From NCBI GenBank assembly GCA_002690445.1, contig NZER01000096.1:1-10654 (forward strand): a stretch of DNA of 10,654 nt. Direction: 5' to 3'. This stretch comes from Candidatus Pacearchaeota archaeon (lineage in GTDB: Archaea; Nanoarchaeota; Nanoarchaeia; Pacearchaeales; GW2011-AR1). Of this stretch, positions 1,087 through 10,654 are shown in pieces. The notes below the pieces were generated by a model that worked only from the letters and a program-made list of their open reading frames with translations, had not been told where the DNA came from and made no database searches. A program made the position numbers and the translations under genes. Within the stretch, counting starts at the first letter, position 1. Each line of letters opens with the position of its first letter.

Positions 1087-2958
1087 CTACTCTTCTTCCT
1101 CTGTTTCTTCTTCCATATCATCCAACAGACCACCTTCAGTAATCTGAGGACTTTCTGGTGGAGGTGGGGGTGGAGCTAGACCAACTCCGCCACCAGCAGG
1201 AGCTTCTTCAGGAACCCCTCCCATAGGAGGCGGCATTCCAGGTAAACCACCCTCCATACCAGGCATTCCAGGCATTCCTCCATCCATTCCGGGCATTCCC
1301 ATTCCTGGAGGCATGGCTGCTTTCTTATATGTAAATCTGATCTCTTTACCTTTCTCCTTAACAGGCTCATACCCAAGCTGTTGCATTTGCATGGCAACTT
1401 CAAGTCTGGCCTTCTCAATGGAGATACTGTCATCCTCAGTCTTCTCAACTGGGGGAGATAGCTTGATTTCAAAATCAGTAACACCCAACTGCTCTAGAAG
1501 ATGCGGCATGATCTGATCATTAATAATATTTTGATAAGACTCAATAAGATTATCGTGCATAGATGTCTGAGCAGTTTCTTTGGCAAGAGAACCGCCAGCA
1601 CTAGAAGCATCACCAGTAAAGAGAGGAGTTACTCCCCAGAGCATGGCAATACGTTCACGTATTTCCTGACGAACAGGCATATAGTCCAATTCTTGGAATG
1701 TGTAAGCTAACTTTACGAAATCCGTCTTACCACGGTTATTTCTTGCAGATGCCGCAACCCACGGGAACGTATTCGGATCATTCAACATCTGCGTCTTGAT
1801 CCGTTCGATCTCCGTTTCTAGGGAATCTGGGTCATCTGTATATGTGATTATCAATCCCGGTGGTATACGTCGCTCATACCAGTATCTATATAGAGTCCTG
1901 TCAGCACCAACCAGAGCAAGAACCTTCTCAAATACTGTAAGAACAGGACTGTATCCATAGGTCTTGGATGGACTGAAGAATGAGGCATGAAGAATCTCAT
2001 CCTTTGTGTAATACCTGTAACGGCCCCTCCAGTAATATCGATACATAGCAGGAATTAATATAGCGTTACAGGAGTACCCCTCATCGTTAAGAGCAACACA
2101 ATTCCCAGGGGCAGTGTGTGTTTGCTGCTCCCGATGAAGAGGACACATCCAGTGAGATCGCTCAGGAAGTCCGTCCTTCCTATCAATATCGTACTCAGTA
2201 AGAGCAGGATGCAGTCTGGTTATCTCAAATATACGCTGAGAAGATACCTCTCCAGTCTCCCTATCAACCTCATATTCCTTGTTCAGGAGTAAAAATCCAT
2301 CATCTGCTATAAGAACATCAGCTAAAAACTCAGTTAGAACTGAAGTAAGAGGTTGATGAAAACTGTTAGCGTCACGAAGAAGAGGCTCAAAAGCAAACTG
2401 CTGTGTTATATCGGGCACCATCATTTCATGCCTGACACGCTCTCCATCCTCTCCCCTCTTATATCTCTTAAATCTTCGAGTTGACAACGTATCATTCTCT
2501 GGATCAATGATTTCTTGTTCAACTATCTCATAGATATAACAGCTATCACATTCTTCCTGCTCATCATCCTCACTTTCCTCACCGCATTGAGGACACTTAC
2601 GTGCCCACTTCTGCTCCCAATTACCAAATCCTTTCCTGAACACCTCTCTTTGAATAGAAAGAATGACAGAACGAATTTCTGTAACTTGGAAGGCCAGAAC
2701 AAATAAGTCCTGAAGAATGGATCGTCGATAAATAAACTGCTGTCTAACCCAGTCTTGGATGATTGCATCCAATCCAAGAGGTGACATACGTCCCTGTGAT
2801 GATTGACCCTGACCAGTCTCAGCAGCTTTAACAAGAGCATCGAGAGTACCAAGTACCCCCTGCATTTTGCCGTAGTTCTCCACACCGCTTACACCAGATG
2901 CAGGACTAGTTCCGTTCTGTCCCTGAAAAACATTAGCTAGGGAGTCTAAAATACCCAT
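1087..2958 (-). CDS. Phage portal protein with two zinc-ribbon-like insertions
   Basis: The 623-residue protein would form the dodecameric ring at one capsid vertex through which DNA is packaged and ejected. Support is its place just after the large terminase and portal-like sequence at about residues 300-500: a Tyr/Arg-rich strand (309-318), KDEILHASFFSPSKTYGYSP, the helix VFEKVLALVGADRTLYRYWY, and the later segment MPVRQEIRERIAMLWGVTP. Two Cys clusters interrupt it: C122-x2-C125 with C137-x2-C140, and C272-x2-H275 with C287 and C297. Both look able to bind zinc and are unusual for portals. The tail is Gly/Met/Pro-rich (549-583), then Pro-rich (595-601), then acidic (613-623). The ATG shares one base with the large-terminase stop (TGATG), and an AGGA lies about 11 nt upstream. 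At 623 residues it is longer than many portals, as expected from the insertions and tail. Confidence 0.85.
   Translation of the reverse strand: MGILDSLANVFQGQNGTSPASGVSGVENYGKMQGVLGTLDALVKAAETGQGQSSQGRMSPLGLDAIIQDWVRQQFIYRRSILQDLFVLAFQVTEIRSVILSIQREVFRKGFGNWEQKWARKCPQCGEESEDDEQEECDSCYIYEIVEQEIIDPENDTLSTRRFKRYKRGEDGERVRHEMMVPDITQQFAFEPLLRDANSFHQPLTSVLTEFLADVLIADDGFLLLNKEYEVDRETGEVSSQRIFEITRLHPALTEYDIDRKDGLPERSHWMCPLHREQQTHTAPGNCVALNDEGYSCNAILIPAMYRYYWRGRYRYYTKDEILHASFFSPSKTYGYSPVLTVFEKVLALVGADRTLYRYWYERRIPPGLIITYTDDPDSLETEIERIKTQMLNDPNTFPWVAASARNNRGKTDFVKLAYTFQELDYMPVRQEIRERIAMLWGVTPLFTGDASSAGGSLAKETAQTSMHDNLIESYQNIINDQIMPHLLEQLGVTDFEIKLSPPVEKTEDDSISIEKARLEVAMQMQQLGYEPVKEKGKEIRFTYKKAAMPPGMGMPGMDGGMPGMPGMEGGLPGMPPPMGGVPEEAPAGGGVGLAPPPPPPESPQITEGGLLDDMEEETEEEE
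1232..1316 (-). repeat. Imperfect repeats coding the Gly/Met/Pro-rich portal tail
   Basis: The plus-strand octamer GGCATTCC recurs at 1232, 1262, 1271 and 1292, with partial copies between. On the coding strand it gives the GMPGMPGM-type stretch of portal residues about 549-583. Short in-frame repeats of this kind can change length by slippage, so strains may differ here. The region is probably disordered and external to the portal core. Confidence 0.7.
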
Positions 2959-4925
2959 CAGTTATCAAATCCTAATTGACTCATTAAGTATGGATCAGGT
3001 TCTCTGAGAATTTCCCATGAAACTCCATCGAACTTAGAACGGTGCCAACGTGTCCCGCAAATTATACATTGTCTAGTCATGGCAAGGATAGGATCAAACG
3101 TACGTCCTCCGGCCTCATCTGAGTACTCTATTCCGCCCAACCTACTACAGGTATCACAGACATCCCTGCTACTACTGACTATCCTCTTTGCTATATCAGC
3201 CTGTCGGAAACTTGTACCTGGATTGTTCATTTCCTCAACAACAGGATTTTTATACCTAGGATCAGCATCCACGGTAACAGTTGGGGAACTGAACAAGGTA
3301 TTCAAATTACCCACATTTCCCATACGAGTAACGATACCTCTCTCCTTTAAAACTCCGTGAACGGCCCCTGCAACTGCATCAGCCATGTCTTTTTTCTGTC
3401 CAGGTCTGGCATCAATACGCTCTCCATATACAACATCAAGTCCCAAAATCTCTTCTATGGTCTCTTTATGGAAGAAACCATCCAGTTTCTCCTGATATAT
3501 AAGGTCTTTCAGGGTGTCATAAGCCTCTCTTCCCCTTCCTACAGCCTTATATTTAGCAGGAATTCCTGCATTTTGAAGTGTTTGAAGAGAATTCACTGAC
3601 TGGTAGTTATCATAAGTAACACTGGCTATTCGATACCCCTGCTCTCGCAGCCTAATAATGAATCTCTCAATGCTTCTAAAATCAACATCCTTATCAGGTT
3701 CGGGAGCCCAGACTTTTATAGCATCCAGATAAACACTTTCTTCAGCTTGGTGAGCAATACAGAGAGCTGCATCCGAATGACGTAATCCTAAGTCCACATG
3801 GATATAGTAGTACTTACCTTTCTCCAGCATGAACTCATCTCGAACTTCTTTGATACCTGCCCAGATGATATCCCCCGTCTCATCAGTGTCAGCATCAAAT
3901 GCTCTTAGAACTGGAAGGGGATCACGTATAAAAGCATCTCTTGCATACGGAGGATCACATTCAAATCTAGCCCTAGCAAGAACTGGGTCATTCAAATAGA
4001 AATCTTCGAAATCTTCTTTCTTTTTAGAGGGATTAAACTCCCACGTAGCATAAGGAGTGCCATCATCCTTACAGGCTACATAAGTTCTAGACTCTAACTT
4101 CCCTGCCTCAAATCTACGTTGGATAAATGATCCTCTAAATCGAGGCCACGAAAGACTAATTACTTTCCCGACTCCAGGAAATCTCGATTGTATAAGTGCT
4201 TTAGCCGTTTTATATACACCTTCGGCACCCTCACTTCGGAGTGATCGACTACGTTGAAGCTCCTGCTCCGATTTAAAGGCATCAATCTCATCCAAAATAA
4301 TAAGAATCGGAGTATATCCCTGCCAAGCTTCATTTTCCGAGTTACCACTTATTAACCTTATATTCTTAGGAAAATTCAGAACTGTCTGAGTAGAAGAATA
4401 TTTAATAGTTCCGGGTTCGTTACCCTCATCAATAAAAAGAGGAGAATTGCGTAAAACATTGGAGAGGGTCTGAAAATAGATATTCTTCGCTAGGTCCGCA
4501 TTCGGGGCCACATTAATAGTGTCAATGAATCCACTTGTATCCATACCAAGATAGGTCTGAGGAGATTTCAAACAATTCAATAGATAGACAATTCGGAGGC
4601 CTATAAATATAGAACAGGTGTCTTTACCAGAGCCCTGACCTGACATAAGAACACCCTCAGTCATAGGACGTTCACCAAAAATATCAGAAAGGTTTTGTAT
4701 TAAATCTACTTGAGGATCAGAAAGAGTTATCCCAAGGTTGAGATATCTTGGTCCGTATAAAAACTCGTTTATATCAACTGGTCTTTCATCCCATATACTA
4801 TCTGTATCAACAGATTGACCATCTACAATATCATCAATTAGCCACTGTCCTGCTATTGTAAAGTCTGCCGAGGGCGACGAGTTTTTCTCCGATTCTCTGG
4901 CGGGTGATTGCATCAGGAACCTCAT
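2958..4925 (-). CDS. terL: Terminase large subunit (packaging ATPase and nuclease) with C-terminal zinc ribbon
   Basis: This is the DNA-packaging motor: an N-terminal ATPase translocates DNA and a C-terminal RNase H-like nuclease cuts concatemers. The Walker A-like loop is GQGSGKD (residues 96-102), with Asp where Ser/Thr is usual. Walker B is ILIILDE (207-213; D212, E213). The nuclease acidic residues are probably D378 (YIHVDLG), D439 (VTYDN) and D513 or D516 (KKDMADA). Beyond the nuclease, residues 590-628 hold C590-x2-C593 and C620-x2-C623 with H628, a predicted zinc ribbon. The total of 655 residues is long for the family because of this tail. ATG 4925 has AGGA 9 nt upstream. ATG 4913 (residue 5), with GAGG 6 nt upstream, is an equally good start. 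The gene overlaps the small-terminase end by 92 or 80 nt and shares one base with the portal start. Confidence 0.92.
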   Translation of the reverse strand: MRFLMQSPARESEKNSSPSADFTIAGQWLIDDIVDGQSVDTDSIWDERPVDINEFLYGPRYLNLGITLSDPQVDLIQNLSDIFGERPMTEGVLMSGQGSGKDTCSIFIGLRIVYLLNCLKSPQTYLGMDTSGFIDTINVAPNADLAKNIYFQTLSNVLRNSPLFIDEGNEPGTIKYSSTQTVLNFPKNIRLISGNSENEAWQGYTPILIILDEIDAFKSEQELQRSRSLRSEGAEGVYKTAKALIQSRFPGVGKVISLSWPRFRGSFIQRRFEAGKLESRTYVACKDDGTPYATWEFNPSKKKEDFEDFYLNDPVLARARFECDPPYARDAFIRDPLPVLRAFDADTDETGDIIWAGIKEVRDEFMLEKGKYYYIHVDLGLRHSDAALCIAHQAEESVYLDAIKVWAPEPDKDVDFRSIERFIIRLREQGYRIASVTYDNYQSVNSLQTLQNAGIPAKYKAVGRGREAYDTLKDLIYQEKLDGFFHKETIEEILGLDVVYGERIDARPGQKKDMADAVAGAVHGVLKERGIVTRMGNVGNLNTLFSSPTVTVDADPRYKNPVVEEMNNPGTSFRQADIAKRIVSSSRDVCDTCSRLGGIEYSDEAGGRTFDPILAMTRQCIICGTRWHRSKFDGVSWEILREPDPYLMSQLGFDN

Positions 4926-5361
4926 CCTTTATTATCCTAGCTATGTCTATAAGAAACTCTCTTGATATTTCTGCCCCACGAATTTCAACTTGTCCCTGAA
5001 GACCAGTTACTACTGCATCTATAGCCTGTTTCTTATCTCTAAAACGTAGCTCATCGTCCTGTACCCCATCCTCTCCAACCTTCGCTATAAGCTGGTAACC
5101 CTTTAAAAGCTGTTTCTTAGCTTCGGTTATGGCACTTACGGAATTTTCAAATATCTCTAGCTCAGCATCAGTAGTCAGTGCTATCTGATAAGCTTTCCAC
5201 TTATCCCTATAACGCCATGACGTTATGGTAGAAAGGGGAATTCCAGTTGTATCACTGATCTCCTCTACTGTTTGCCCTTGTCCGTAGAGGTCTTTTGCTT
5301 GTTGCCGGATTTCTTTGGGCCAGGCTTTTCTAACAAGCTGTCCTTTATTTGGTTCTGCCAT
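4834..5361 (-). CDS. terS: Probable terminase small subunit (HTH DNA-recognition protein)
   Basis: The 175-residue protein has an N-terminal helix-turn-helix at about residues 17-56: EIRQQAKDLYGQGQ, then TVEEISDTTGIPLSTITSW, then a basic RYRDKWKAY. This is the pattern of small terminases and other phage HTH proteins. The rest (about 65-165) is largely charged helix, fitting the oligomerisation region of small terminases, which bind the packaging site and hand DNA to the large subunit. Placement directly before the large terminase supports the call. ATG 5361 has AGGTG 8 nt upstream, and a later start would remove the HTH, so the 97-nt overlap with the preceding 106-residue gene appears real. 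The 3' end overlaps the large-terminase start. An HTH regulator is the alternative, but position makes it less likely. Confidence 0.8.
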   Translation of the reverse strand: MAEPNKGQLVRKAWPKEIRQQAKDLYGQGQTVEEISDTTGIPLSTITSWRYRDKWKAYQIALTTDAELEIFENSVSAITEAKKQLLKGYQLIAKVGEDGVQDDELRFRDKKQAIDAVVTGLQGQVEIRGAEISREFLIDIARIIKDEVPDAITRQRIGEKLVALGRLYNSRTVAN

Positions 5362-6741: not shown

Positions 6742-9700
6742 CTATTTCTTCTTGCGTTTCGTAGTTGCTTTCTTTATCTTAGGACGGGCATACGTAACAA
6801 CTCCGCTTGGAGAAATCTTCCATCCTTTCTTCTGCAAGTCGCCTATCTTCTTATTAATAGACTTCCATTTACGAGTATCCATAGACATTATCCGACTGGT
6901 TAATTCCTCAGTCTCCATCTGGTTATACTCGTTCCATTCATTAAATAGATCAGGATCAATGTAATTATCCAAACATGTAGTAGGTTCATTACCTAGTGCA
7001 TTTGAAGCAGGCTCTGCAATAGCTAACTTGGCAGAATCCTGACGACGCTGTATCCATTGTCTACAAATATTCTCCGTCTCCGCCTCAGACAATAAAGCAA
7101 GTCCAGCGTCACCAAGCTTCTTATTCTCGCTTGTTATGTTCGTTGCAATGGCAGCTTCAACAGACCCCATAAATTCCTCAGCCGATAAAGAAGAAACATT
7201 TCTATCACCTATTGAGGCAGTTGTTGGAATATCAGAAGAAGCTAATAAATCCTTAGCCACCATATTAGCCTGAAGAGTACGAATGGTTCGAGCAGTGACC
7301 TTACTGTCAGGAACAGCCCCCTTAGAGATAGAGTCTATGTAATCACTTGTGCCACCAACAGGAGATGTTCCTGTACCACCCCACGCCTTGGTAGAGAATA
7401 TATAGTCCTCATCACCAAGATTCTTATCTTTACTGAATTCTATTAATTTCTTGGCTAGGACAGGATCAGTGACAGGAGCATGGTTAACCTTGGCAGACTT
7501 ACCAATAAAAGAAAGCATTACGGAGCCATCTGACTGAGGCACTATATGACGTTTCTGCAAGGTAGATATACCGAAAGTTCTAACTGAGAAACCAGTTAAT
7601 ACTTTGTCCTTTCCCTCTCCTCTCATAATAGGAGCCAAGAGATCGCTCTTTACAACGGAAACATCCCTGCCTTCCTTCTCCTTTTTAACAGCTTGCACTG
7701 CTTTGACTGCCTTAGCAGTCGAAATCTTTCCTCCAGAAGTCATCAACTTCTCACCATCAGGAACATTTATATTCGATTTCCGACTAGTGGCACCAGGACG
7801 ACGGGCAGTATGGAAAACTAGAGCCGCAGACATAGCATTTCTTTGAATTGTCAAACCACTAGCCTTTGGTTGATCTGGAAGAGGCTGAGGATTAGAAATA
7901 TCAGAGATAGCCCTCTTCTTGAGGTCACCAAGAATCCCTGATTCAACTAGCTTTCCAACCTTAGCAAACTTAGCCCTGCTGCTATGTGCAGCCCAAGACC
8001 AGCTATACTTGGTATGATCTGAACCGTCAGGTGCTGTATATTTGAGTTGGATTTTCCCATTACCATTTCTGTTCACAGAAACGTCAGTATTTCCACCAAT
8101 AGCAAACCAGTGCCCATCTCCAGTGGTTATCCCAGAAAGATTTCTTTCTACCTCTCCTGTCTCTTTATTCTCGTTCTCTGAATAAACAGCGACATTGGGC
8201 TGAAGAGGAGTAGTACCTATTGAACCAGAACCCTGTCCAGTCACATATGCCTGCCTAACTTGTGCATTTAGATCACCCATAGATACCTCAGGAAGTCCAG
8301 AAGCAAAATCCTCTACGGATGTCATGTCCATGACACTCTCTGGGCCTTTCACAAAATCAACAGGCTCAGAGGTCTCCTTAGGAACAAGGGCCTCTCTAGG
8401 AGCCCCTGCACCAGTTGTCTGACCAGGACCAATCGCCTTTCCTTCCGTATCTACTTCATACCCAATAACATCATATCGACCTCCTTTAGGACCGACATGT
8501 CTGCCATTCGGAACGGTGTAGTCTTTCTGATCTTCAGGTAATTTCCAAGTCCAATCTTCATATCGTGCCCACTGAGATTCTTTATATAGATACTCAACAG
8601 CAGATAGAAGAGACATGACTTCTGCCATATCATCAGACTTTTGAACAGGAGCTACTGTGCCACCTTCTAAAATCTGTGCCAGCTTTGGATTGACGTTCTT
8701 ACCAGCTGGACCAGCCCTAACCGACGAATAAAGTGTCCTCATCCACTTACGGAATGGAGTTTTCCAATTCTCTCCACCCAATTGCTCAGTACCATCCTGA
8801 GCCTTTTGAATGTCTTCATGTCCCTTATAAAGTTCTTCTTCCAGTGCATCAGCTAACTGTTCTTCATTCTCAGCTTTCCAATGACCATTTGCCACACCAG
8901 ATTCATCGGCAGCAGCCTGCTTCTGCTCTGGAGTTAAGTCCCTTCTATATACACGACCTATGCCACGAATCATATCCTTAACATCATCTACAGATAGAGA
9001 TTGCTGAAAAGTATTAGCATCCTCTTGCAACACAGTCAGAGCCGTAAGGTCTTCATTACTCATTGACTCTAAAACCTTAGGAACTTCTGAAATCTTAAAC
9101 GAGTCATAATTAGTGGTCTGACCGTTATAGCATCCAAGTCCATCCCTATCTTTCATATCACAATTGGCACAGGTCCAATTATTTCCAGTAGGCTTAACCT
9201 CGAATCCTATCTTAGGGTCCGCCGTCTCTTTTCTCCCGTCATCGATAGGACACATATTCACGCCGAGATGTTTTCTGTCATCACTAGGCTGAATAGCCCG
9301 AATCTTTTTCATGTCTTCGGTAGTAGCCCCATTTATTGGATTATTTAAATCCCTAACAGGAAGAACTACCTGAATACGATCTTTATATTTCTCAGCATAC
9401 GAAAGGTTCTTATCGAGTTCCGCTTGCCTCTCTTCCTCTGTTCGGACCTTGCCAGTCCTCCTGTCTTTTACTGGACCCTTCCCCGTGAATACAAATGCTA
9501 TTGGAAGATCATTACCTTCAGCTATCTCTGGATTATCCTGATCGACACTCAACAACCTGATATTTTCTTTCGCTACCATATTTAAAAATGGTGGACGTTT
9601 GGAAAATACATGAACTCGAATACCAGTGCCTCTGGGAGTCTTCGCTTTATTGACGTGATAAATTACTTTAGCCCAAGCCTCAGACCCTTCCCCCCTATCA

Positions 9701-10654
9701 AAGAATCGTAAAGCACGATCATTTTCATAAAGAACTTTTCCTTTACCTGATACAAAATCTTTTACAACTAATTCTGCAAATCTCTTCGGATCATTATTAA
9801 CAGCCCACTCCAGAAATTCGGATTTAAGAATAATGTCAGGCCATGTACCTCTGGCAGTATAGGCATAACAAAAATCCTTACAATCGCCTGAGGGATTACA
9901 ATTTAACGCACTTGAAGCAACAGCCCCCACGGGCTTAGCAGGCGCACCCATAACCTCAGTTCTCTCAAGATAGGACCAGATAGCTTCACCACCATTCTCA
10001 AGAATAGCTTTAGCAAGATCATTTCTAGCCCTTGAAGTGGGAGCTACCTCACCCTTCTTATTCTCTTTAAGCTGAAACATCATATTCTCAGTTATCGGAC
10101 TACCATCTCCACTAAGTAAAGCAGCTATTCCTCTCCTAGCTTCAACAGATTTCTGAACCGCTTTTCCCCAGGGACTTTTCTTCCATTCCTCCCTGTCTTC
10201 TTCTGGAATTTCCATCTCATCCAAAACATCATCTAAAGTTTTTCCCAACTTTTTGGCCTGTTCTTCTAAACTCTCAATCGACCAAACATCTAATCTGTCC
10301 TCGATAGGGCCAAGACCTACGTTCTGCCCATTTACAAATCCTGCATGGTCCATGTCATCTAACCATGAACCAGCTATCTCTTGAACTCTATCTTCCGGAG
10401 TTTTTCCTAAACTTCCCCATCCTTTTAGAAGAGACCCTACAAACTGAAGCCTCTCTTCGCTTAAGTTGGGATGAAGCTCACGCAACTTTGATAGGTGGGC
10501 ACCTATGGACTCTTCCTGTGCTGCCTGTGTAGTCTCCTGTGCCTGAGGAGTAGCCTGTCCTGCCCGCCACCACTGTTTTCCAGGCGCACCAGTGCTGGAT
10601 GAAGGAGTAGTTAGAATCTGTGCATTCTCAGGGGGTGGAGTAGAACTGGAGTAG
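6742..10654 (-). CDS. Giant multidomain protein: GP88-like Cys domain fused to a C-terminal topoisomerase IB-like domain (5' partial)
   Basis: The frame is open from the right edge to TAG 6744-6742, at least 1303 residues. The first 56 lie upstream of an internal TTG at 10485 and are Pro/Gln/Ser/Thr-rich. Numbering from that TTG: residues 1-140 are helical and charged. Residues 185-455 resemble phage 'gene product 88' proteins: C196-x5-C202-x3-C206-YA, RFFDRGEGSEAW (260-271), HVFSKRPPFL (292-301), C412P, and C439-x2-C442 with C452. Residues 460-790 are largely unassigned, with GRHVGPKGGRYDV at 661-673. Residues 790-1178 look like topoisomerase IB: IQLKYTAPDG and KYSWSW, TARRPG (Arg896), FGISTLQKRHI, FIGKS (Lys996), ARTIRT (Arg1069) and GNEPTTCLDNYIDP (Tyr1175). 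These align with the family's Arg, Lys, Arg and Tyr; Asn in GNEP replaces the viral His, as I recall for bacterial members. The tail is Lys-rich. It may relax DNA during packaging or entry, which is inference. Confidence 0.82.
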   Translation of the reverse strand, partial: YSSSTPPPENAQILTTPSSSTGAPGKQWWRAGQATPQAQETTQAAQEESIGAHLSKLRELHPNLSEERLQFVGSLLKGWGSLGKTPEDRVQEIAGSWLDDMDHAGFVNGQNVGLGPIEDRLDVWSIESLEEQAKKLGKTLDDVLDEMEIPEEDREEWKKSPWGKAVQKSVEARRGIAALLSGDGSPITENMMFQLKENKKGEVAPTSRARNDLAKAILENGGEAIWSYLERTEVMGAPAKPVGAVASSALNCNPSGDCKDFCYAYTARGTWPDIILKSEFLEWAVNNDPKRFAELVVKDFVSGKGKVLYENDRALRFFDRGEGSEAWAKVIYHVNKAKTPRGTGIRVHVFSKRPPFLNMVAKENIRLLSVDQDNPEIAEGNDLPIAFVFTGKGPVKDRRTGKVRTEEERQAELDKNLSYAEKYKDRIQVVLPVRDLNNPINGATTEDMKKIRAIQPSDDRKHLGVNMCPIDDGRKETADPKIGFEVKPTGNNWTCANCDMKDRDGLGCYNGQTTNYDSFKISEVPKVLESMSNEDLTALTVLQEDANTFQQSLSVDDVKDMIRGIGRVYRRDLTPEQKQAAADESGVANGHWKAENEEQLADALEEELYKGHEDIQKAQDGTEQLGGENWKTPFRKWMRTLYSSVRAGPAGKNVNPKLAQILEGGTVAPVQKSDDMAEVMSLLSAVEYLYKESQWARYEDWTWKLPEDQKDYTVPNGRHVGPKGGRYDVIGYEVDTEGKAIGPGQTTGAGAPREALVPKETSEPVDFVKGPESVMDMTSVEDFASGLPEVSMGDLNAQVRQAYVTGQGSGSIGTTPLQPNVAVYSENENKETGEVERNLSGITTGDGHWFAIGGNTDVSVNRNGNGKIQLKYTAPDGSDHTKYSWSWAAHSSRAKFAKVGKLVESGILGDLKKRAISDISNPQPLPDQPKASGLTIQRNAMSAALVFHTARRPGATSRKSNINVPDGEKLMTSGGKISTAKAVKAVQAVKKEKEGRDVSVVKSDLLAPIMRGEGKDKVLTGFSVRTFGISTLQKRHIVPQSDGSVMLSFIGKSAKVNHAPVTDPVLAKKLIEFSKDKNLGDEDYIFSTKAWGGTGTSPVGGTSDYIDSISKGAVPDSKVTARTIRTLQANMVAKDLLASSDIPTTASIGDRNVSSLSAEEFMGSVEAAIATNITSENKKLGDAGLALLSEAETENICRQWIQRRQDSAKLAIAEPASNALGNEPTTCLDNYIDPDLFNEWNEYNQMETEELTSRIMSMDTRKWKSINKKIGDLQKKGWKISPSGVVTYARPKIKKATTKRKKK

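Follow-up and report, generated by a model that had tools for sequence, protein, structure and literature searches.

A polyvalent-like phage protein joins a GP88-type domain to a predicted topoisomerase IB through a recurring leader module

Two kinds of described system bear on the locus considered here. In the main-text account of Iyer et al. (2017, PMC5512222), phage polyvalent proteins are proposed to be injected together with the DNA, and their genes typically lie near late genes. Capsid-targeting sequences are described for T4, where according to a passage in PMC9026906 the ten N-terminal residues of IPIII suffice for entry into the head, and for P1, where according to a passage in PMC9024508 the thirty N-terminal residues of DarB are enough to carry a reporter into the capsid. 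The DNA that we analysed, contig NZER01000096.1 at its full length of 10,654 nucleotides (the window), carries on its minus strand a single block of co-directional genes, one of which encodes a Cys-rich GP88-type domain followed by a predicted topoisomerase IB (TopIB) domain, with an 80-residue module, here called the leader, in front of TopIB. We favor the view, to which we give a probability of roughly 0.6, that this is a phage protein of the polyvalent kind that is packed into the virion by way of its leader, injected, and relaxes DNA soon after entry; its packaging, injection, topoisomerase activity and GP88 chemistry are all inferred from sequence.

The reading frame of the fusion protein is open at the window edge and free of internal stops over 1303 codons. 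A family search covering 5.8 billion proteins, with 7,993 candidates scored, gave four proteins: P0001 (the window protein), P0002, P0003 and P0004. Close relatives of the fusion are few (these four, including the window's own), and a further search gave three more TopIB proteins. P0002 (1367 amino acids) and P0003 (1345 amino acids), which belong to other records, cover 97% and 95% of the query in alignment and keep the order GP88-TopIB, in agreement with the original prediction of a single frame of more than 1300 codons joining a GP88-like Cys domain to TopIB. Because these two records share the order, the fusion is to be read as real and not as an assembly accident of the window. A copy of P0002 that differs at one of 1367 residues lies on a 105-kb viral contig, G001 (L002 7887-11990), which also encodes tape-measure, DNA polymerase, methyltransferase, terminase and portal proteins, and the copy on the contig of L001 is identical to that of L002. 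Between the window and L002 the non-synonymous and synonymous distances (dN and dS) are 0.09 and 0.89 for GP88, and 0.29 and 2.7 (the latter near saturation) for the TopIB core; dN is well below dS in both parts, and therefore purifying selection on both would fit. The true gene start most likely lies upstream of the window, since residues 1-48 match residues 83-127 of P0004 (45%, E 1.7e-5). The start assumed originally did not stand: its numbering fits a TTG codon at 10485, an unlikely start, and is offset by 56 from the frame numbering used here. Once this offset is allowed for, all seven Cys residues named in that prediction are found in place, as are its TopIB landmarks, its Y1175 being our Y1231.

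We consider the assignment of the C-terminal domain to TopIB secure. The window domain matches PF01028 at E 9.7e-5 and 22.3 bits, under the curated cut-off of 23.7, and P0002 does likewise (22.2 bits); P0003 (2.4e-7), P0004 (9.7e-8) and P0005 (4.5e-8) are above the cut-off, as are four relatives encoded upstream of terminase in related phages (1.3e-13 to 1.5e-20). All 11 aligned proteins keep R952, K1052, R1125, N1222 and Y1231 in this order, with P0002 and the L002 copy counted once; the L030 protein, which is the same as the last 476 residues of that of L031, was for this reason left out of the alignment, but L030 is counted among the loci below. These five residues align with R137, K174, R239, N280 and Y289 of Deinococcus TopIB, which we take to be its catalytic residues, with Y289 presumably the nucleophile. 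The relative from L034 matches Deinococcus TopIB (2f4q) at E 2.9e-8, and its residues 319-404 are colinear with residues 53-140 of the N-terminal beta domain of 2f4q, a stretch that is not significant alone (i-E 3.9). A profile of four TopIB N-terminal pieces, searched against the PDB, found nothing. In the fold comparison Foldseek rows 1-14 were all TopIB, with E below 0.001 in two of them (best 1.8e-4), and three variola TopIB rows cover model residues 7-483 at a root-mean-square deviation of 7.5-8.1. The window protein is predicted to be a topoisomerase.

The Cys-rich domain is reached as a divergent GP88-type domain through P0003 and P0012. Scanned against Pfam, the window protein itself gave no GP88 (PF17338) match at E <= 0.1; the orthologue P0003 matches the profile at E 0.0024, below cut-off, and P0012 narrowly clears that cut-off (24.9 vs 24.4 bits), with its siblings P0008-P0011 below. 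P0012 is in turn matched by the family profile of the window at E 1.9e-38 and has all seven of the window's Cys residues. The best match of GP88 in BFVD is a 1122-residue 'Gene product 88 domain-containing protein' of an uncultured phage (E 8.6e-13, 32%). The domain lacks the radical-SAM motif C-x3-C-x2-C and has C-x5-C-x3-C instead, so that the original statement that this is no classic radical-SAM motif is right by sequence, yet the closest folds to a medium-confidence structure model of the domain are radical-SAM barrels. We dropped matches of GP88 to designed beta-trefoils in the PDB (whole-sequence E 1.2e-6 at best), because one stretch of about 30-45 residues was weakly and repeatedly matched to threefold-repeat proteins and no single stretch passes in 15 of the 16 rows. 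Matches to the ribosomal protein L37Ae (E 1.2) were not significant.

The leader is the most distinctive feature of the protein and had escaped notice in the original prediction. It comprises about 80 residues: a helix with L-L-x-A-x-E-Y-L-x-K at its core is followed by a second half that contains H-x-G-P-x-G-G. P0002 and P0003 have two copies each, P0005 has one, and P0004 has one full and one partial copy. In the window the leader precedes TopIB; in relatives it also precedes GP88, CCA-adding enzyme and kinase-like domains. The 1768-residue gene neighbouring the fusion gene on G001 has three leaders, one before a CCA-adding-enzyme/HD unit and two before Pfam-blank units, and in L014 a leader starts a GP88-bearing protein. 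A related segment stands in front of the distant TopIBs of L031, L032, L034 and L037. Our first leader profile, built from nine seed copies, missed these segments at E 0.001, and the distant copies were added by eye to give a widened profile; this found the leader before the kinase-like frames of L031 (1.4e-13), L032 (1.1e-16) and L037 (4.7e-9), none of them seeds. We cross-checked this with a profile built solely from the four distant copies and run against 2,520 frames, with shuffled frames as a control. After its own seeds this profile found: (i) the kinase-like frames of L031, L032 and L037 and a fragment of L030; (ii) the near leaders of P0004, P0003, G001 and P0005 at E 7e-5 to 2e-4; and (iii) the window leader at E 0.024, the best score in shuffled frames being 3.6 bits. 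Because of this cross-check we regard a relationship between near and distant leaders as likely but not overwhelmingly so. An attempt to extend the leader helix to further genes of G001 found no support, and a search for the leader in named phages gave six records (best E 4), which we dropped as chance matches.

Several further observations concern proteins that carry leaders or leader-like segments. By eye, the two Pfam-blank units of the 1768-residue gene resemble ADP-ribosyltransferases, a resemblance that Pfam did not confirm. The kinase-like frames upstream of TopIB (L031 1-3456, L032 1754-3325, L037 1440-3149 and L034 1-1044) match PI3_PI4_kinase at E 1e-6 to 1e-3, one of the four over the cut-off; three have the leader, the fourth (L034) being cut by the start of the locus, and that of L031 also has DUF192. 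Stretches of the form G-P-R-x-G, resembling the second half of the leader, occur in genes after portal (L030 15892-16482, L030 13129-15495 and L033 13467-14741) and were found with the near-leader profile at E 4e-5 to 0.02. Matches of fecal 'Bacteriophage sp.' records to the CCA-containing protein were dropped, as these may be ordinary CCA enzymes.

The cargo behind the leaders is exchanged. In P0004 the middle of the protein is occupied by ART-PolyVal (PF18760, E 5.5e-10) in place of GP88, while its N terminus is 81% like that of P0002 over 59 residues and its C-terminal leader-TopIB part is the same; ART-PolyVal is a Pfam family named for polyvalent proteins, and the likeness to such proteins that had been suggested is thereby borne out. 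The last 632 residues of P0004 are 96.5% identical to P0005, a protein of 664 residues without the middle cargo. Module identities are likewise discordant: P0001 and P0002 are 84% identical in GP88 and 62% in TopIB, P0002 and P0003 54% and 77%, respectively.

We compared gene order in 10 loci with local profiles, L002 being in the TopIB profile by construction. TopIB lies upstream of terminase in six of them (L002, L030, L031, L032, L034 and L037), and in L002 (on G001) and L032 it lies between ribonucleotide reductase, confirmed by Pfam, and terminase. L028 and L036 have the reductase and terminase, and the local profiles gave no TopIB match in the stretch between them; the gap between the two genes is about 1.9 kb there vs 12.1 kb in L002. 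The remaining two of the 10, L014 and L033, are cut by a contig end and were counted on neither side. Several loci are redundant: L035 comes from the contig of L028, L038 from G001, and L020 and L021 from the contig of L014; L003, L010, L016-L019, L025-L027 and L029 show G001 or the contig of L001 once more; L013 and L011 were treated as repeats, and L012 was left out. Some genes in these loci stand out in their own right. In L037, a 480-residue frame (1-1440) has a sub-cut-off match to metallopeptidase profiles (best E 2.3e-5); zincin-type peptidases are typical of polyvalent proteins. In L034 the match of the terminase large subunit (6885-9998) is split into 10-328 and 708-1034 by an inserted segment of about 380 residues that may be an intein; intein and HNH matches occur in the Thy1 gene (3402-5330) nearby. 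G001 has a second PolyA_pol/HD gene of the CCA-adding type after portal (57013-58620; L006 17013-18620), and one tRNA gene (Tyr) was found on that contig.

With regard to how the protein might work, the leader, by analogy with the T4 and P1 capsid-targeting sequences, would bring its cargo into the prohead, where cleavage at the leader by a head protease may follow, perhaps behind the conserved Glu. The enzymes would then be ejected together with the DNA. TopIB, which needs neither ATP nor metal, would relax host DNA or the genome as it enters, allowing early transcription to begin, and GP88, going by the structure model, would act as an iron-sulphur, perhaps radical-SAM-like, modifying enzyme. 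Our reasoning for proposing a capsid-targeting role is that the architecture and gene position are polyvalent-like and that T4 and P1 provide precedent for such tags; on this analogy the leader is likely a capsid-targeting tag. The context in L015 also speaks for this view: a frame there holds the second half of the leader, and the second gene after it matches NUDIX and a prohead protease (Peptidase_S78). A-x-E is given as the motif of the SPN3US head protease in a passage of PMC10052503 and is present at the conserved-Glu site in 14 of 19 aligned leader helices, but as a sign of a head-protease site it is weak evidence, being a three-letter motif in related copies. A broader scheme, in which this phage lineage possesses a modular virion-cargo system with the 80-residue address module repeatedly placed before exchangeable enzymes, within and between genes, and in which the heads would thereby receive a varying set of ready-made enzymes, including a TopIB that resets DNA topology at entry, is an idea that we put forward tentatively.

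The alternative that survives best takes the leader for a linker prone to recombination, or for an interaction module, that allows cargo shuffling and is no packaging signal, the protein perhaps being delivered otherwise. Such a role would suit the discordant module identities, and leaders can serve as recombination sites because neighbouring genes share them. However, distant phages have leader-like segments in the corresponding position ahead of TopIB, and therefore a function in the protein is suggested, not only homology at the DNA level. We consider this alternative rather unlikely, and the capsid-targeting interpretation remains the one that we prefer.

We think it less likely still that TopIB and GP88 do their work in the cytoplasm at a late stage of infection, in genome replication or packaging and without entering the virion, the leaders then being assembly or DNA-binding modules. 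TopIB could clear supercoils or tangles from replicated DNA, the gene stands shortly ahead of the terminase and portal genes, as had been predicted, and a Lys-rich tail is found in all 11 aligned TopIB proteins. Furthermore, the solo TopIB gene of Bacteroides phage BS162P1 (765 bp) stands among hypothetical genes. On the other side, TopIB does not appear to be needed for packaging as such, unless it is encoded elsewhere in the genome, because L028 and L036 have no match in the slot, and neither the CCA-adding and kinase-like domains that follow the same leader nor the ART-PolyVal carried in the same protein frame has a known packaging role. Action during packaging had been part of the original prediction; gene order is the one argument for it, and the swapping of ART cargo fits early infection better, so that, on indirect grounds, we favor a role at entry.

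That the C-terminal domain is instead a tyrosine recombinase (integrase or resolvase) is very improbable and was rejected, as the domain has both profile and fold matches to TopIB, is not closer to recombinases than to TopIB, and recombinases score below nearly all TopIB rows. The conditions under which the original prediction was to be given up therefore did not hold. An assembly chimera or decayed gene, for which the shortness of the window record might speak, has a negligible chance of explaining the fusion in view of the domain order shared with P0002 and P0003, the low dN relative to dS against L002 in both GP88 and the TopIB core, and the lack of an internal stop.

Downstream of the fusion frame the window has four small frames, then a terminase small-subunit-like gene, the terminase large subunit, the portal gene and an open frame (1-1086). 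Among the best matches listed, the large terminase is about 33% identical to its counterparts in Streptomyces phages of 128-136 kb. Frame 1-1086 and its G001 counterpart (63058-66162) are large, lie after portal, are Pfam-blank at E < 0.1 and are related to each other (30% over 199 residues, E 2e-12). No tRNA was found on scanning the window. Two scans of genome contigs for a host or provirus link gave no relatives, a plasmid search with the TopIB part gave no match at E 1, and searches of named phages with the window protein, P0005 and P0012 gave no matches. The coordinates of all features are collected in Table 1.

Table 1. Positions of the features discussed, in window coordinates unless a locus is named; residues follow the numbering of the open frame.
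Feature	Position	Strand	Remark
Whole multidomain open reading frame, 1303 codons in window, 5' end past window edge	6742..10653	-	
Tail of second leader kind (S-S ... P-E-x-A ... W-W), residues 1-32	10558..10653	-	By eye also in P0004, L014
Helical N-terminal part of GP88 module, residues 60-227	9973..10476	-	P0003 counterpart aligns partly with stand-alone relatives P0008-P0012
GP88-type core, residues 228-520, predicted radical-SAM-like barrel, C-x5-C-x3-C motif	9094..9972	-	
C252, C258, C262 (C-x5-C-x3-C)	9868..9900	-	C258 and C262 in 8/8 aligned proteins, C252 in 7/8 (Tyr in P0009)
C468, C495, C498, C508, possible zinc-type Cys cluster	9130..9252	-	All four in 8/8 aligned proteins
Spacer travelling with GP88, residues 541-671	8641..9033	-	61-74% identity among P0001, P0002, P0003
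Leader module, residues 671-753	8395..8643	-	Helix S-D-D-x-x-E-x-M-x-L-L-x-A-x-E-Y-L-x-K, then H-x-G-P-x-G-G-x-Y-D-V-I-G
Predicted counterpart of TopIB N-terminal beta domain, residues 769-931	7861..8349	-	Partly via L034 alignment
TopIB catalytic domain, residues 932-1250	6904..7860	-	
R952	7798..7800	-	Aligned with R137 of Deinococcus TopIB via relative L034
K1052	7498..7500	-	Aligned with K174 of Deinococcus TopIB
R1125	7279..7281	-	Aligned with R239 of Deinococcus TopIB
N1222	6988..6990	-	Aligned with N280 of Deinococcus TopIB
Y1231	6961..6963	-	Aligned with Y289 of Deinococcus TopIB
Lys-rich C-terminal tail (9 K/R, no D/E in last 20 residues)	6745..6804	-	8-12 K/R in last 20 residues, 11/11 TopIB proteins
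Terminase small-subunit-like gene	4834..5361	-	Terminase_5, E 1.7e-8
Terminase large subunit	2958..4925	-	About 33% identity to Streptomyces phage terminases
Portal protein	1087..2958	-	phrog_18178, E 3.7e-40
1768-residue gene directly upstream of GP88-TopIB gene	L002 2571-7877 (G001 75950-81256)		

If our interpretation is correct, the set of enzymes that probably travel in phage particles would include a topoisomerase, and DNA topology would be a problem of early infection. In the leader one would have a natural tag that repeats itself and loads proteins into phage heads, and it could guide searches for more cargo in uncultured phages. The discordant module histories, for their part, show how such multidomain proteins get built. 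Among the matches listed in the open-licence literature we did not find a paper on TopIB in a polyvalent protein or one on the GP88 domain. TopIB is also rare in named phages: with the distant relative from L034 as a probe, two of 50,697 records gave a match, and in Bacteroides phage BS162P1 this is a solo gene annotated DNA topoisomerase 1B.

Of the systems to which the window protein can be compared, Deinococcus radiodurans TopIB (2f4q) has the domain order that is predicted here and the same R, K, R, N, Y set, the Asn standing at an active-site place that we take to be occupied by His in other TopIBs. It differs in that the window TopIB is longer, by about 60 residues following R952 and by about 55 in the stretch from R1125 to N1222, is fused to other domains, ends in a Lys-rich tail and has a leader in front. 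GP88 (PF17338) shares its Cys pattern and core with the window domain through P0012, although the window copy is too divergent to score alone. As in T4 and P1, what appears to be a single conserved tag is found on different and unrelated cargo proteins (GP88, TopIB, CCA-adding enzyme and kinase-like frames). The tags of T4 and P1 are short and N-terminal, however, whereas the leader, a putative tag, is an 80-residue module that recurs inside polyproteins. The likeness to polyvalent proteins extends to at least two unrelated predicted activities in one polypeptide (GP88-type and TopIB), to domain swapping, with ART and TopIB together in P0004, and to a gene near those for portal and terminase, with predicted delivery alongside the DNA. 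The differences are that the Pfam scan of the window protein gave no zincin peptidase, and that the main text of PMC5512222 names neither GP88 nor a topoisomerase domain, the one use of the word topoisomerase being in a reference. A recurring leader was not found in the passages of that paper covered here either; 'linker' does not occur in it and 'repeat' occurs twice, once in a passage on secreted toxins. The window protein is best seen as a new branch within the already described polyvalent proteins of phages, with TopIB as cargo and a recurring, address-like leader.

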